Part shown: piece by piece, positions 50,836 through 57,033 of the stretch
How the letters are laid out: each line of letters begins with the position of its first letter
Position numbering within the stretch: position 1 is the first letter of the stretch
From: Ramlibacter sp.
GTDB lineage: Bacteria; Pseudomonadota; Gammaproteobacteria; Burkholderiales; Burkholderiaceae_C
Reading direction: 5' to 3'
Length of the DNA: 64,000 bases
Assembly (NCBI RefSeq): GCF_028291745.1
Contig: NZ_JAQGNQ010000002.1
Span: 1-64,000 of the forward strand
Position numbers and translations under genes: made by a program
The notes under the pieces: generated by a model
What the model was told of the DNA's origin: nothing
What the model saw: the letters and a program-made list of their open reading frames with translations, nothing else
The model's database searches: none

Positions 50836-52400
50836 GACATGCCTTGCGGGTGCGCTGCGGGTGATCGGCCGCAGCCCGCCGCCTTGAGCACGGCTGGGGC
50901 GTTGGCTGGCAACTGCCACAGCTTGCGGTCTGCAGTGGCCGCGATCACCTTGGCATCGGCCATGACTGCATAGCGCGCCGCCACTTCTGGCGCGGCAATC
51001 ACCCAGGTGGTGCGGCCATCGCACAACATCGACGGCCACTGTGCCGGAGTGACCTGCACGGCGCGCGATTGCACCGGGTCGAAGTGGCCGGCATCCGCGA
51101 GTTCCTTGCGCCAGTTGTCCTGCCGCGCCTCGACCCCCTGCCAATCCTCCACCACGACCACCGGATGCCGCAGGCGCGCATAGAAGGACAGGTCGAAGTC
51201 GTAGGCCTGCAGCAGAACGACCCGGTCCCCGTCCGCCACGACCTGGCGCAGCTCCACGCCGATGGCTCGGCCCGATTTGCGTGGGAACACGGCGACGCCC
51301 ACAACGAGGGCCAGGCATCCCGCCAACGCCACGCCGGCACTGGCACGCCAGAAGCGGCCGATGCGTGCTGGCGTGCGCCACTCCATTGCGCCGAAGCGCT
51401 GCGCCACCAGGAGGGCCAGCGGCCAGCACACCGGCAGGATGTAGCCCACGAGCTTGGATTGGGGCAGCGAGAAGAACACGGTGATGGCGATCAACCAGGT
51501 CCACAACAACTGGCGAATCGCCCGTCCGGTCGCATCGAGCTCGCTGTCGCGGCGCACCGCGGCCACCAGCCACCCGGACCACGGCAGGGCCAGCACCGCC
51601 AGCACCACCGGATAGAAAATCACCGGCTGGCGGTTGTTGAAGCCGCCCTGCGCGAACCGCGAGAATTGCTGCACGATGAAGAAGTAGCGCGCGAACTCGG
51701 GAAAGCGCAGTTGCATCAGCACGAACCAGGGCCCGGCCAGCAGCGTGAACAGCAGCATGCCGGGAAGCCACAACAGTCGCGGCAGCAAGCGCCATTGCCG
51801 GCGCAGCAGCAACCACGCGAGCAGCACCAGACCGGGCAGCACGATGCCGATCAGCCCCTTGGCCAGCACTGCGAGAGCCGCGAAGGCATAGCCCGCCGCG
51901 AGGCCGGCGCGCCGGGGCCCCGGCAACGCATCGGCCAGGACGGCATGGGCAAAGCCGAACACCGAGACGGCCATGCAGCCAGCCACCAGCATGTCGAGGT
52001 TGGCGAACTGGCTGCCGATGAAGACGAGGGGCTGCGTCGCCAGCACCAGCAAGGCGGCGCGCGCGACCCGCTCGCCGCACCAGCGCCGCGCGAACAGATG
52101 GAGGGCGGTGGCGCCGGCGCAAGCGCCCAGCCAGGGCGTGAGGCGCACCGCCCACTCATGCGGTCCGAACAGCGCCATCGACCCGGCGGTCATCCAGTAG
52201 AACAGCGGCGGCTTGTGGAAGTAGGGCAGACCGTCCAGCCGTGGAACGATCCAGTCGCCTGAAGTCAGCATGCCCCAGGCCACGCCGACGTAGCGGCCTT
52301 CGTCCGGCAGCCCGAGCGGCCGCACCCAGGCCGTGAAGCCCAGCCAGACGAACAGCAGCAGCAGCGGAACATGGCGGCCGCGTAACATCTGCGCGTTCAC
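50832..52400 (-). CDS. GT39-family glycosyltransferase (ArnT-like)
   Basis: A 522-residue inner-membrane enzyme with about 12 helices and a C-terminal periplasmic domain. The N-terminal loop LGLPDEGRYVGVAWGMLTSGDWIVPRLDGLPYFHKPPLFYWMTAGSMALFG contains the DEGRY motif, with the catalytic acidic residue, and the FHKPPLFYW motif, both typical of ArnT. ArnT enzymes move an amino sugar from undecaprenyl phosphate to lipid A at the periplasmic face. It overlaps the genes on both sides by 4 bp. Amino-arabinose synthesis genes (arnA, arnB, arnD) are absent here, so the sugar is probably a hexosamine. Confidence 0.92.
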   Translation of the reverse strand: MNAQMLRGRHVPLLLLFVWLGFTAWVRPLGLPDEGRYVGVAWGMLTSGDWIVPRLDGLPYFHKPPLFYWMTAGSMALFGPHEWAVRLTPWLGACAGATALHLFARRWCGERVARAALLVLATQPLVFIGSQFANLDMLVAGCMAVSVFGFAHAVLADALPGPRRAGLAAGYAFAALAVLAKGLIGIVLPGLVLLAWLLLRRQWRLLPRLLWLPGMLLFTLLAGPWFVLMQLRFPEFARYFFIVQQFSRFAQGGFNNRQPVIFYPVVLAVLALPWSGWLVAAVRRDSELDATGRAIRQLLWTWLIAITVFFSLPQSKLVGYILPVCWPLALLVAQRFGAMEWRTPARIGRFWRASAGVALAGCLALVVGVAVFPRKSGRAIGVELRQVVADGDRVVLLQAYDFDLSFYARLRHPVVVVEDWQGVEARQDNWRKELADAGHFDPVQSRAVQVTPAQWPSMLCDGRTTWVIAAPEVAARYAVMADAKVIAATADRKLWQLPANAPAVLKAAGCGRSPAAHPQGMS

Positions 52401-53419
52401 CGGGGCCCTCCACTCAGGCCGCGGCCCATCTGGCGCTTGACCAGGTACAGGGGCCTGGCCTTCACCTCCTCGAAGATGCGGGCGATGTACTCGCCCAGGA
52501 TGCCCGCGAAGATCATCTGAATACCGGAAAAGAACATCAGTGCCACCACGATGGTGGTCCAGCCGGAAACCTCGTGTCCGTACAGCAGGTACACGCCCGT
52601 GAGGTAAGCGCCATAGGCGAAGCTCGCCCCGGCGATGGCCGTGCCGACAGCGCTGACGATGCGCAGCGGCCAGGTGGTGAAGGCGGTCAGGCCGTCGATC
52701 GACAATCCCAGCAGGCGCAATCCGCCAAAGTGCGAGCGGCCATGCACGCGCGGTGGCGGCACGTAGGGAACGCCCACTGCGTCGAAGCCGATCCAGGCGT
52801 ACAGCCCCTTCATGAAGCGATTGCGCTCGGGCAGCGCCAGCAGCGCGTCGACGGCACGGCGATCCAGCAAGCGGAAGTCGCCCGCGTCCTCCGGAATCGG
52901 GAAACGATGGAAACGATTGAGCAGCGAGTAGAACAAGCGCGTGCCGGAGCGCTTGACTAGCGATTCGTCGGCGCGGCTGGCGCGATAGGCATAGACCACG
53001 TCCGCGCCGGCTCGCCAGCGCTCTACCATCTCCGGAATGAGGGTGACAGGGTGCTGCAGGTCGGCGTCCAGCATCACCACCACGTCGCCCTGCGCCGCCT
53101 GCAGTCCGGCGGTCAGCGCCGCCTCCTTCCCGAAGTTGCGCGAGAGCTGGATCAAGCGCACGCCAGGCACCTCGATGCAGTCTTCCATGACGAGCGCGGT
53201 GTCATCAGTGCTGCCGTCGTCCACCAGGATCACTTCCCACTCGGTGCAAAGCGCGGCCAGCGTTTCGCGCAACATCGGCAGTAGCAGGGTCAGGTTGCGG
53301 GCCTCGTTGCGGCAGGGGACGACGCAGGACAGGCGCGGGGGCAGCGAGCGTTCGCTGCGGTCCCGTTGTACGCCTTCCGCTGCATGCAGTGGATGGCGGA
53401 TTTGCGGTGCAGTGTGCAT
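52397..53419 (-). CDS. GT2-family polyprenyl-phosphate glycosyltransferase (ArnC/DPM1-like)
   Basis: A 340-residue protein with a cytosolic GT-A domain and two C-terminal helices. Motifs: LSCVVPCRNEARNLTLLLP, VILVDDGSTDDT, LSRNFGKEAALTAGLQAAQGDVVVMLDADLQHP (the metal-binding DxD) and FRLLDRRAVDALLALPERNRFMKGLYAWIGF. The helices LRIVSAVGTAIAGASFAYGAYLTGVYLLY and TTIVVALMFFSGIQMIFAGILGEYIARIFEEV match GtrB/ArnC-type enzymes, which load a sugar on undecaprenyl phosphate. The arginine-rich first 25 residues are probably not conserved, and the true start could be slightly downstream. First gene of the three-gene operon. Confidence 0.92.
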   Translation of the reverse strand: MHTAPQIRHPLHAAEGVQRDRSERSLPPRLSCVVPCRNEARNLTLLLPMLRETLAALCTEWEVILVDDGSTDDTALVMEDCIEVPGVRLIQLSRNFGKEAALTAGLQAAQGDVVVMLDADLQHPVTLIPEMVERWRAGADVVYAYRASRADESLVKRSGTRLFYSLLNRFHRFPIPEDAGDFRLLDRRAVDALLALPERNRFMKGLYAWIGFDAVGVPYVPPPRVHGRSHFGGLRLLGLSIDGLTAFTTWPLRIVSAVGTAIAGASFAYGAYLTGVYLLYGHEVSGWTTIVVALMFFSGIQMIFAGILGEYIARIFEEVKARPLYLVKRQMGRGLSGGPR

Positions 53420-53710
53420 GGGAGGTGCGTGGAGCGGACCGGGCTACAGCGGTCTCTCACCAGCTGCCCGGCGCAGCGGTGTCGTGGAATGGATGGAGCA
53501 TAGACGTTTCCTCGTTAAGAACCCGTAAAGGCCGTTCGCGCTCTTGCCGTGGCCGGCAAGTTCCGCGACCTGCAGCGCGGAGCCGACGCAGTTATTGACG
53601 TGCAGTACGAGGTGGTCGGGTTGCCTAGGGAGCGGGGCTGCGACTGCGCGACCCGACGCAGACTGCCGTAGTGTCGCCGGGCCCACCACCACTGAGGCGA
53701 CTGGGCCATG
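53420..53710. other. Intergenic stretch, no supported gene
   Basis: This stretch separates the minus-strand glycosyltransferase operon from the riboswitch remnant. Several frames of 60-130 codons cross it, all arginine/serine-rich and without motifs. The promoter of the GT operon should lie at its left end. I can support no discrete element in it. Confidence 0.5.
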
Positions 53711-53795
53711 CGCTAAACTTCGCCCCCTCGTCGTTGGGGAGTAGCTGCCCTGCGCCGCAGGACTCTCGTCGACACACTTGGCCTTGGTGCACGGC
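53711..53795 (+). promoter_or_regulatory. yybP-ykoY-type (Mn2+) riboswitch, probably orphaned
   Basis: The segment contains GTTGGGGAGTAGCTGCCC, then about 25 bases on CGTCGACACACTTGGCC, which fit the two conserved internal loops of the yybP-ykoY aptamer (GGGGAGUAGC and GUCAACAUACxxGGCC). These riboswitches sense Mn2+ and usually precede mntP or TMEM165/GDT1-type exporter genes in betaproteobacteria. The 3' closing strand and expression platform are not evident, because an exporter C-terminus follows almost directly. It is therefore probably a 5' leader left after an internal deletion. Assigned by eye; a covariance-model search would settle it. Confidence 0.6.
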
Positions 53796-53861
53796 ATCGC
53801 TGCTGCCTTGTTTTCCGTGCTCGGACTGCTGACGCTGTTCAACGTTGGTGGCCTGTTCTGA
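53784..53861 (+). pseudogene. 3' remnant of a TMEM165/GDT1 (UPF0016) Mn exporter gene
   Basis: The frame LVHGIAAALFSVLGLLTLFNVGGLF, then a stop, has the hydrophobic pattern of the last helix of GDT1/UPF0016 transporters and ends as those proteins commonly do. It starts immediately behind the riboswitch-like segment, so about 150 codons of the gene body appear deleted. The junction lies near 53785-53800. The family call rests on about 23 residues and the riboswitch context. Confidence 0.5.
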
Positions 53862-53874
53862 AGGAAAGGTGCGC

Positions 53875-53964
53875 GTGGACCTGCAGCGCATTACGCATCG
53901 TGGCTACAACGTAGACCCCGGGCCCGTGCCCGTCTACCGCGGTCGAGCGCAGTGGGAACACTGA
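53875..53964 (+). CDS. Possible 29-residue small ORF upstream of the ABC permease
   Basis: A GTG at 53875 lies 8 bases behind AAGGAA and opens VDLQRITHRGYNVDPGPVPV, continuing to a TGA at 53962-53964, 9 bp before the permease ATG. The composition looks protein-like, and the site is suitable for a leader peptide. It could instead be unrelated leftover sequence from the decayed exporter locus. Confidence 0.3.
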   Translation: MDLQRITHRGYNVDPGPVPVYRGRAQWEH

Positions 53965-53973
53965 GGCCAAGGC

Positions 53974-55710
53974 ATGTTTTCCATATTCTCATCGCGTCGC
54001 ACCGGCACGTCCTTGCTATCGACGACCCCGAACCGGTGGGACTGGGCCTTGTTGCCCATCGTCCTGAGCGTTCTCGTGGGGCTTGCGTTCGGCGCGGCGC
54101 AAATGAGCCGACCTTTCGTGCTCGGACAGCCCACGCCCGTCACCCTGGACCCGTTGCAGCTGCCTTACTACCTGCTACGCACCATCTTGCGCATGTTCAT
54201 GGCGCTGACCTGCTCGCTTCTCTTCAGCTTCGTGTTCGCGACGTTCGCAACGAAGTACCGTGCTGCGGAAAAGGTCCTCATTCCGCTGCTCGATGTGCTG
54301 CAGTCGGTGCCGATCCTCGGCTTCCAGGCGATTGCCATCGCCCCTTTCATCGCGCTGTTCCCGGGCAATCTCCTGGGTGTCGAGTGCGCAGCGATCTTCG
54401 CCATCTTCACCTCGCAGGCGTGGAACATGGCATTCAGCCTGTACCAGTCCATGAAGACGATTCCGCCGGAGTTGAACGAGGCTGCGCGCGTGTTCCGGCT
54501 CTCCGGTTGGCAGCGGTTCTGGCGGCTGGAGCTTCCCTACGCCACGCCGGGGCTGCTGTGGAACATGATGATGTCGATGTCAGGAGGCTGGTTTTTCCTG
54601 GTCGCCGCGGAGGCGGTGTCGGTCGCCAACCAGGACATCAAGCTGCCCGGCATCGGTGCTTACATTGCGGTGGCGATCGCCGAGGAAAACGGTCGCGCCA
54701 TCCTGTGGGCGATCGGCGCGATGCTGGCCGGCATCATCCTGTACGACCAACTGTTCTTCCGGCCGCTGCTGGCCTGGGCAGACAAGTTCCGGTTCGAAGA
54801 GTCCCAAGGCGACACAGCCCAGAACTCCTGGCTGCTCGACTGGGGCCGGCGCAGCGCCGTCGTACGCGCCATCTCCGATCAATTCTGGGCTGGCATGCGT
54901 GGCGCCCTGGGCTGGTTCAGCGGACCCGGCTCACGCGACGTGCAACGTGCCCCCCAGAAGCAGACGTCCAGCGTGCCCTGGACGCGCGTGTGGGACATCT
55001 CGATGCTCCTGATCGCGGTCATCACGGCGCTTGCCTTTTTCCTGTACGTGCACAGCGTGGTGGGCTGGCGCGAGGCGGCGCACGTGCTCGGCCTGGGGTT
55101 CATCACGCTGACACGGGTGCTGGTGCTGATCGCACTCGCATCGCTGGTCTGGGTTCCCGTTTCCGTGTGGATCGGGCTGCGCCCCGCCTGGTCGCAGAAG
55201 GTCCAGGCGCTCGCGCAGTTTCTCGCGGCGTTCCCCGTGAACCTGATGTTCCCGCTGGTCGTGTACGTCTTGGTCAGGTACAGATTGAACCCGAACATCT
55301 GGCTCAGCCCGCTCATGGTGTTTGGCACCCAGTGGTACATCCTCTTCAATGTGGTTGCGGGTGCGTCGACGCTGCCCAATGAGCTTCGGCTGGCGGCCGA
55401 GAACCTGGGCCTCAAGGGCTGGTTGAAGTGGAAGCGCGTCTACCTGCCCGCGGTGTTCCCCAGCTTCGTGACGGGCGCCATCACCGCAAGCGGCGGATCG
55501 TGGAACGCGAGCATCGTCGCCGAGTACGTAACCTGGGGCAAGACCTCGCTGGTTGCGGATGGCCTGGGCAGCTACATCAAGCGCATGACCGATGCGGGGG
55601 ACTTCCACCGCATCGCCCTGGGCATTGGCGTCATGTGCGTGTTCGTCATGGTGCTCAATCGTTTCTTCTGGCGGCGCCTGTACCTCCTCGCGGAAGACCG
55701 CAGCACATAG
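53974..55710 (+). CDS. ABC transporter permease, two fused membrane domains (NitT/TauT type)
   Basis: A 578-residue protein containing two complete BPD_transp_1 units. The first unit has its EAA loop in LNEAARVFRLSGWQRFWRLELPYATPGLL; the second in LRLAAENLGLKGWLKWKRVYLPAVFPSFVTG. The units are separated by a cytosolic linker with FEESQGDTAQNSWLL around residue 280. Normally two permease chains pair; here one chain gives both. The ATPase gene follows after 9 bp. No binding protein is encoded nearby. This pair type (fused permease plus AAA-associated ATPase) is widespread in proteobacteria but of uncertain substrate, annotated as nitrate/sulfonate-like. Confidence 0.93.
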   Translation: MFSIFSSRRTGTSLLSTTPNRWDWALLPIVLSVLVGLAFGAAQMSRPFVLGQPTPVTLDPLQLPYYLLRTILRMFMALTCSLLFSFVFATFATKYRAAEKVLIPLLDVLQSVPILGFQAIAIAPFIALFPGNLLGVECAAIFAIFTSQAWNMAFSLYQSMKTIPPELNEAARVFRLSGWQRFWRLELPYATPGLLWNMMMSMSGGWFFLVAAEAVSVANQDIKLPGIGAYIAVAIAEENGRAILWAIGAMLAGIILYDQLFFRPLLAWADKFRFEESQGDTAQNSWLLDWGRRSAVVRAISDQFWAGMRGALGWFSGPGSRDVQRAPQKQTSSVPWTRVWDISMLLIAVITALAFFLYVHSVVGWREAAHVLGLGFITLTRVLVLIALASLVWVPVSVWIGLRPAWSQKVQALAQFLAAFPVNLMFPLVVYVLVRYRLNPNIWLSPLMVFGTQWYILFNVVAGASTLPNELRLAAENLGLKGWLKWKRVYLPAVFPSFVTGAITASGGSWNASIVAEYVTWGKTSLVADGLGSYIKRMTDAGDFHRIALGIGVMCVFVMVLNRFFWRRLYLLAEDRST

Positions 55711-55719
55711 GAATCCGCG

Positions 55720-57033
55720 ATGAAGCAATTCCTGCTTGACCTCAAGGGCGTCTCGAAGTCCTTCCGCACCGCCGACGGAGCGCCGCGGCTTGTCCTTGAA
55801 GGCGTGAACTTCACGCTCATGGAAGGTGAGATCGTCGCACTGCTTGGCAAGTCGGGCTCGGGGAAATCAACCCTCCTGCGCATCATGGCCGGACTGCTGG
55901 CGGCCGACGCGGGCAGCGTCACGTATCGCGGCCGCGCGATCACCGCCCCCGTCGCCGGCGTTTCCATGGTGTTCCAGTCCTTCGCGCTCTTTCCTTGGCT
56001 CACGGTGCAGCAGAACGTGGAGCTCGGCCTCGAGGCGCAAGGGATCGCGTCGCACGAGCGCCAGGAGCGCGCCGACTCGATGCTGGAACTCATGAACCTT
56101 GGCGGCTTCGGAGGGGCCCTGCCACGCGAGCTTTCCGGGGGCATGCGCCAGCGGGTGGGAATCGCCCGTGCCCTGGTCACGAACCCGGACGTGCTCCTGA
56201 TGGACGAAGCCTTTTCCGCGCTCGACGTGCTCACGGGAGAGACGCTTCGCAGTGACATCCTGGAGTTGTGGGACAGCGGGAGCATCCCGACCAAGGGCAT
56301 GCTCGTGGTCTCGCACAACATCGAAGAGGCGGTCATGATGGCGGACCGCATCATCATCCTTGCGAGCGACCCGGGTCGCATCCGCAGCGAGTACCTCATC
56401 GAAGTCGCGCGGCCGCGCAATGCCGACTCTGCCCAGGTGCGAGGTCTCATCGACGAGGTGTACGGTCTGATGACCATGCGCCCTGTTTCGGCTGCTGCCA
56501 CGCTGGCCGCCGCTTCCGCCCATGTCCACTATCGACTCCCGGATACCGACGTCAGCCGCATCGAGGCGGTGCTTCACCTGCTCGCGGCCCCGCCCTTCAA
56601 TGGCCGCGCGGATCTGCCAAAGCTCGCCGATGAAGCGGAGCTGCCCGACGAGGAACTGTTCCCGACCTACGAAGCGCTGGGCCTGCTGGGGCTGGCGCAG
56701 GTCGAAAAGGGGGATATCAGCCTGACGCCGCTCGGGCAGCGGTTTGCCGAGGCCGGACAGACGCTGCGCCAGGAAATCTTCGGCCAGCAGCTACTGACGC
56801 ACGTCCCACTGGCCGCCCGCATTCGCAAGGACCTGGAGGCGGAGCCTTCGGGTACGCTGAAGGAGGAGCCTTTCATTGCCCTGCTGGAGGAGGCGCTCGA
56901 GGCGGACGAAGCCGCGCGAACCATGGAAATCGCCATCGAATGGGGTCGCTACGGCGAGGTGTTCGAGTACGACTTCAATGCCGGTGTGCTGAAGCTGCCC
57001 GACGAGGAGCCGCCGGAGGCGCCCGCCAGCTGA
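55720..57033 (+). CDS. ABC ATPase with C-terminal AAA-associated domain
   Basis: A 437-residue protein. Residues 1-255 form a NitT/TauT-type ATPase: Walker A GKSGSGKST, Q-loop MVFQSFALFPWLTVQQNV, signature LSGGMRQRVGIARAL, Walker B VLLMDEAFSALDVLT and H-loop VVSHNIEEAVMMADR. Residues about 280-437 form an AAA-associated C-terminal domain (LADEAELPDEELFPTYEALGLLGLAQVEKGDISLTPLGQRFAEA), which looks like a winged-helix module and may regulate transport. Partner of the fused permease. It ends at the left border of a small gene-poor stretch. Confidence 0.93.
   Translation: MKQFLLDLKGVSKSFRTADGAPRLVLEGVNFTLMEGEIVALLGKSGSGKSTLLRIMAGLLAADAGSVTYRGRAITAPVAGVSMVFQSFALFPWLTVQQNVELGLEAQGIASHERQERADSMLELMNLGGFGGALPRELSGGMRQRVGIARALVTNPDVLLMDEAFSALDVLTGETLRSDILELWDSGSIPTKGMLVVSHNIEEAVMMADRIIILASDPGRIRSEYLIEVARPRNADSAQVRGLIDEVYGLMTMRPVSAAATLAAASAHVHYRLPDTDVSRIEAVLHLLAAPPFNGRADLPKLADEAELPDEELFPTYEALGLLGLAQVEKGDISLTPLGQRFAEAGQTLRQEIFGQQLLTHVPLAARIRKDLEAEPSGTLKEEPFIALLEEALEADEAARTMEIAIEWGRYGEVFEYDFNAGVLKLPDEEPPEAPAS

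Follow-up and report, generated by a model that had tools for sequence, protein, structure and literature searches.

The segment at positions 53711–53861 of the window (i.e., the whole stretch of 64,000 nucleotides that was analysed) is very probably the relic of a GDT1 (TMEM165/UPF0016-type) gene formerly controlled by a Mn riboswitch, from which a deletion of approximately 0.61 kb has removed the interior. Both ends of the original unit are present in this scar; they are adjacent, on the same strand and in the original order, and the interval missing between them is found in intact homologues elsewhere. A preliminary description of the sequence had recognized the motifs of a Mn riboswitch, the C-terminus of a Mn exporter and the absence of the gene body between them, and the analysis reported here supports all three points; two further truncated genes lying at the same locus had been missed. 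The coordinates of all the features are reported in Table 1.

Two profiles, one of the leader DNA (up to about TTGGCC) and one of the C-terminal protein sequence, were built from 46 intact riboswitch-GDT1 loci retrieved from the genome harboring the window, from its genus (60 genomes) and from a sample of its family (401 genomes). Gene content and relatives suggest that this genome belongs to the Burkholderiales. In unfiltered searches of the whole 64-kb window, the leader profile gave a single significant match (E = 2.2e-9, the next one having E = 0.35), corresponding to the aptamer piece of Table 1, and the tail profile was significant only in the frame ending at 53858 (E = 7.2e-11, the next one having E = 4). 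The two matches abut on one strand and keep the order of the gene. The break is placed at the same point by BLASTN, since the matches to intact leaders stop at approximately 53783–53785 and most of the matches to GDT1 tails begin at 53785.

The leader motifs can be read by inspection at 53730–53783, where the signature of the 5′ side of the aptamer (GGGGAGTAG together with a GTCAACA-type L3) is present with two conserved bases changed. One change converts GTCAT into GTCGT, at a position occupied by A in 45 of the 46 intact relatives; the other converts TCAACA into TCGACA, where A is found in 46/46, a count that is partly due to construction, the motif having been required when the intact loci were searched for. 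The leader is 81% identical to the intact one of a member of the same genus (G009). It had been proposed that the piece could be recovered with the Rfam model RF00080; indeed, a cmscan of the region 53300–54100 against 4227 families at a permissive threshold returned RF00080 as the sole match (+ strand, 53724–53889, 18.4 bits, E = 0.0075), but this score is below the gathering score of 45 bits, as the aptamer lacks its 3′ half, and no Rfam match at curated thresholds was found in the 64-kb window. Good alignment is restricted to columns of the 5′ part, one helix has five broken pairs, and the 3′ strand closing P3 and P1 (a GAGACCTTTG-type segment) is absent from the scar. Since this strand is missing and P3 is left unpaired, the scar is predicted not to bind Mn in the way the known aptamer does. 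A functional RNA was also considered for the residual sequence and rejected, as it folds no better than shuffled sequences.

On the other side of the junction, the profile of GDT1 tails identified the homologous C-terminal helix. The tail frame gave no Pfam match, PF01169 included, and no E-x-G-D-K/R-T/S motif of GDT1 was found in the window. The tail's reading frame remains uninterrupted, a state compatible with a recent loss as well as with weak constraint.

The extent of the deletion can be estimated from the distance between the end of the CTTG in L3 and the LVH (or equivalent) codons, which is 607–664 bp in the 46 intact loci and 3 bp in the scar; therefore, approximately 0.61 kb is missing, rather than the 0.5 kb suggested previously. 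What has been lost comprises the expression platform and the 3′ half of the aptamer, as well as the start and almost all (about 85–90%) of the gene. Hence the earlier view that the leader and the 3′ end had both been preserved holds for the 3′ end and for the 5′ part of the leader, but not for the riboswitch as a whole, the deletion starting inside the aptamer (L3/P3). Most leaders of the type found in the scar read CTTGGCC, and GDT1 genes reading ATGGCGCTGGTGCAC (MALVH) do occur (L232 and L239), so that the breakpoint probably made use of the five-base homology TGGCC. The simplest account would thus be a single deletion running from the L3/P3 region of the aptamer to 25 codons before the stop, joining the 5′ part of the leader to the 3′ end of the gene. 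This would probably have occurred at the short repeat TGGCC in a redundant gene, and decay would have followed; judging from its sequence, the scar would no longer encode an exporter, nor would it bind Mn in the manner of the known aptamer, and it has already begun to decay.

The intact counterpart of this unit is well represented among the relatives, where riboswitch-GDT1 units occur in which about 0.6 kb separates the two points that meet in the scar. In the same genus, G009 harbors one at C1:285263–286021, with a full two-motif GDT1 ending in MRLVHGISALIFAVLGVLTLLNVGKLF; the GDT1 proteins of G178 and G340 end in LVHGIAA(A/V)IFAVLGLLTLFNVGRLF, and intact units also occur in many genomes of the family. 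As a separate observation, another member of the genus (G027:C115:81148–81854; L110, L192) carries a GDT1 gene behind a full Mn riboswitch with matches that fall in different frames, pointing to frameshifts or sequencing errors. Adjacent riboswitch and GDT1 halves were found in no other genome among some 450 of the genus and family, and on this ground the possibility that the scar is a small gene conserved among relatives was ruled out. A whole riboswitch-GDT1 gene at the exact site of the scar was not found in any close strain. In G006:C198 (L206), an intact unit lies approximately 3 kb upstream of the permease orthologous to the one following the scar, on the same strand and with other genes in between; among 80 named loci, one (Oxalobacteraceae bacterium OM1, L029) has a riboswitch-GDT1 near the permease, in the opposite orientation. 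The occurrence of the unit within about 3–4 kb of the permease in G006 and OM1, in differing arrangements, might reflect either a loose neighborhood or a coincidence.

The scar is the middle one of three relics located within about 420 bp, all of which keep the 3′ end of a gene and lie on the + strand. Further deletions nearby would have reduced a beta-propeller-like gene, on one side, and an OprB porin gene, on the other, to their 3′ ends. The intact copy of the former is found at C138 of the same genome, beyond the paralogue of the glycosyltransferase gene of the window; the name "beta-propeller-like" is tentative, since an NHL repeat falls below the cut-off and profiles name the protein weakly. 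The glycosyltransferase and its neighboring genes exist in duplicate in this genome (49966–53421 and G000:C138, L209), with about 80–86% DNA identity. The C138 block was considered as a possible counterpart of the scar locus and discarded, as it has no riboswitch-GDT1 piece; it did identify the first relic. Upstream of the window's glycosyltransferase gene, a further short segment resembles C138 as well, in a weak alignment (E = 0.012); if this resemblance is right, about 3.3 kb would be missing at that join, with GCCGGC shared. Concerning the third relic, a porin gene ends just before the same ABC permease in six named loci (including Noviherbaspirillum, Massilia and Oxalobacteraceae OM1), and the profile of these six porin ends matches the window only at the relic. 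In Oxalobacteraceae the porin gene preceding the permease is complete. The match to L084 continues past the stop codon into the start region of the permease, and the OprB family was assigned from a full-length porin homologue.

Table 1. Features identified at the scar locus and around it (positions refer to the window).
Feature	Position	Strand	Evidence
Intact glycosyltransferase 2 gene, far side of the relics	52397–53419	-	85% paralogue at C138
Relic, 3′ end of a secreted beta-propeller-like gene	53545–53609	+	83% over 64 bp, E = 1.5e-11, vs. intact copy at G000:C138
TAAACT, where intact leaders show a -10-like TAnAnT	53714–53719	+	Comparison of 51 leaders
5′ part of the yybP-ykoY Mn riboswitch aptamer (GTCGTTGGGGAGTAGC ... 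TCGTCGACACACTTGGCC), 3′ half missing	53728–53783	+	RF00080 (18.4 bits), leader profile, identity to G009
Putative deletion junction, probable 5-bp repeat TGGCC	53779–53783	+	Leaders end CTTGGCC; some homologous genes read ATGGCGCTGGTGCAC
Last 25 codons and stop of the GDT1 exporter gene (LVHGIAAALFSVLGLLTLFNVGGLF*)	53784–53861	+	Tail profile, frame translation
Relic, 3′ end of an OprB-family porin gene, through the stop codon	53866–53964	+	Porin C-terminus profile (E = 2.1e-5), L084 alignment
Intact ABC transporter permease, directly downstream	53974–55710	+	PF00528
Intact ABC ATPase with AAA_assoc_C domain	55720–57033	+	PF00005, PF09821

Most likely, then, the scar is a dead relic; other explanations can be envisaged. 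The scar, the porin relic, the permease and the ATPase are all on the + strand with no intact gene in between, an arrangement compatible with the idea that the deletions joined the old promoter of the exporter, without a working riboswitch, to an ABC permease-ATPase operon lacking its porin gene, so that the scar would now be the leader of that operon. The TAAACT at the position of the -10-like element of intact leaders agrees with this promoter capture; however, a scan for strict -35/-10 consensus promoters found none, one weak terminator-like hairpin is present at 53792–53805 (0.4 expected by chance), and orthologous permeases whose loci show no scar exist in G009, G006 and G001. Overall, we consider this capture unlikely. 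If it were true, the operon of an ABC importer would be driven by the promoter of a Mn exporter from which the riboswitch has been removed, and a rearrangement would have removed both the exporter and the porin and rewired the remainder.

The possibility that the scar is a small element under selection, either a trimmed riboswitch or a short membrane peptide, appears extremely improbable: the tail retains an open frame of 25 codons, near the start of which TTG/GTG codons occur, but no ribosome-binding site is evident, the aptamer has lost its 3′ half, invariant bases are altered, the RNA has no special fold and the element was not found in about 450 related genomes. Nor does it seem plausible, except at a very low probability, that two separate loci have been wrongly joined during the assembly. 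The sequence comes from a draft assembly (148 contigs) for which a contamination of 4.7% is estimated, and short repeats such as those at the inferred breakpoints are also places where assemblers err; however, the leader is at most 84% identical to any other riboswitch of the genome or of the genus so that none of these has been misplaced here, and an artefact would imply that the assembler had erred independently at several joins in a span of about 420 bp.

The reading of the scar as the relic of a redundant exporter gene can be considered together with the other Mn riboswitches of the genome, which are intact and score 58.7–86.4 bits for RF00080. One of them belongs to a complete riboswitch-GDT1 unit (C98), and another one precedes a gene that was read by eye as a sodium/calcium-exchanger-type gene (C141); since both are kept, the loss of the exporter at the scar was probably tolerable. 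At a further locus (C45, G000:C45:2641–3084; L210, L240), a complete Mn riboswitch is followed by a GDT1 gene of just 86 amino acids, with a single EMGDKTQ motif, located upstream of metX, at the position that a metX-linked GDT1 commonly occupies in the genus. In relatives, the two motifs are 297 bp apart in the DNA and each of them is embedded in a near-identical stretch around GARATGGGCGACAAGACSCAG; for this reason the C45 gene looks like the outcome of an in-frame deletion of 297 bp that would have occurred between the two internal repeats. Such a half-size gene was seen in no other genome searched; wherever else in the family sample the match was strong, the open frame at this place measured at least 186 amino acids. 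Hence, the three riboswitch-GDT1 loci of this genome comprise one intact (C98), one halved in frame (C45) and one reduced to a scar, and the genome is seen in the course of trimming redundant Mn exporters. The halved copy raises the question of whether a one-motif GDT1 made by deletion can still export Mn.

It is known that in bacteria the control of GDT1 by yybP-ykoY is the rule, a UPF0016 gene being under this riboswitch in 328 of the 333 screened strains that possess such a gene (PMC7380456). The scar shares with these RF00080-GDT1/UPF0016 units the leader motifs and the C-terminus of the gene, in the same order and on the same strand, and differs from them in lacking the 3′ half of the aptamer, the expression platform and about 85–90% of the gene. 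As two pieces, each below threshold, abut in the right order, a short remnant is enough to recognize the loss of the gene, despite no above-threshold Rfam or Pfam match. Among the titles and abstracts retrieved on relic riboswitches, nothing appeared relevant, and none joined riboswitch, pseudogene and truncated riboswitch. The loss of Mn exporters under riboswitch control has precedents; notably, a decayed Mn exporter has been described in Bordetella pertussis, where BP3410, an exporter of the calcium:cation antiporter family, lies behind a working Mn riboswitch and is reversibly inactivated by a 30-bp duplication (PMC8546581). In both cases a yybP-ykoY-controlled Mn exporter has been lost, and BP3410 represents a precedent for such a loss being tolerated or even useful; in the scar, however, the GDT1 gene was deleted along with half of the riboswitch, and an intact GDT1 exists elsewhere in the genome, whereas the riboswitch of BP3410 works. 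The scar also resembles the ordinary relics of deletions between short repeats, in which the ends of the gene are kept, the body is lost, decay follows and other relics lie next door. The scar shows no essential difference from them: it is a case of ordinary gene decay, in which half of a riboswitch was lost too, and it is unusually readable, the riboswitch making it easy to recognize.
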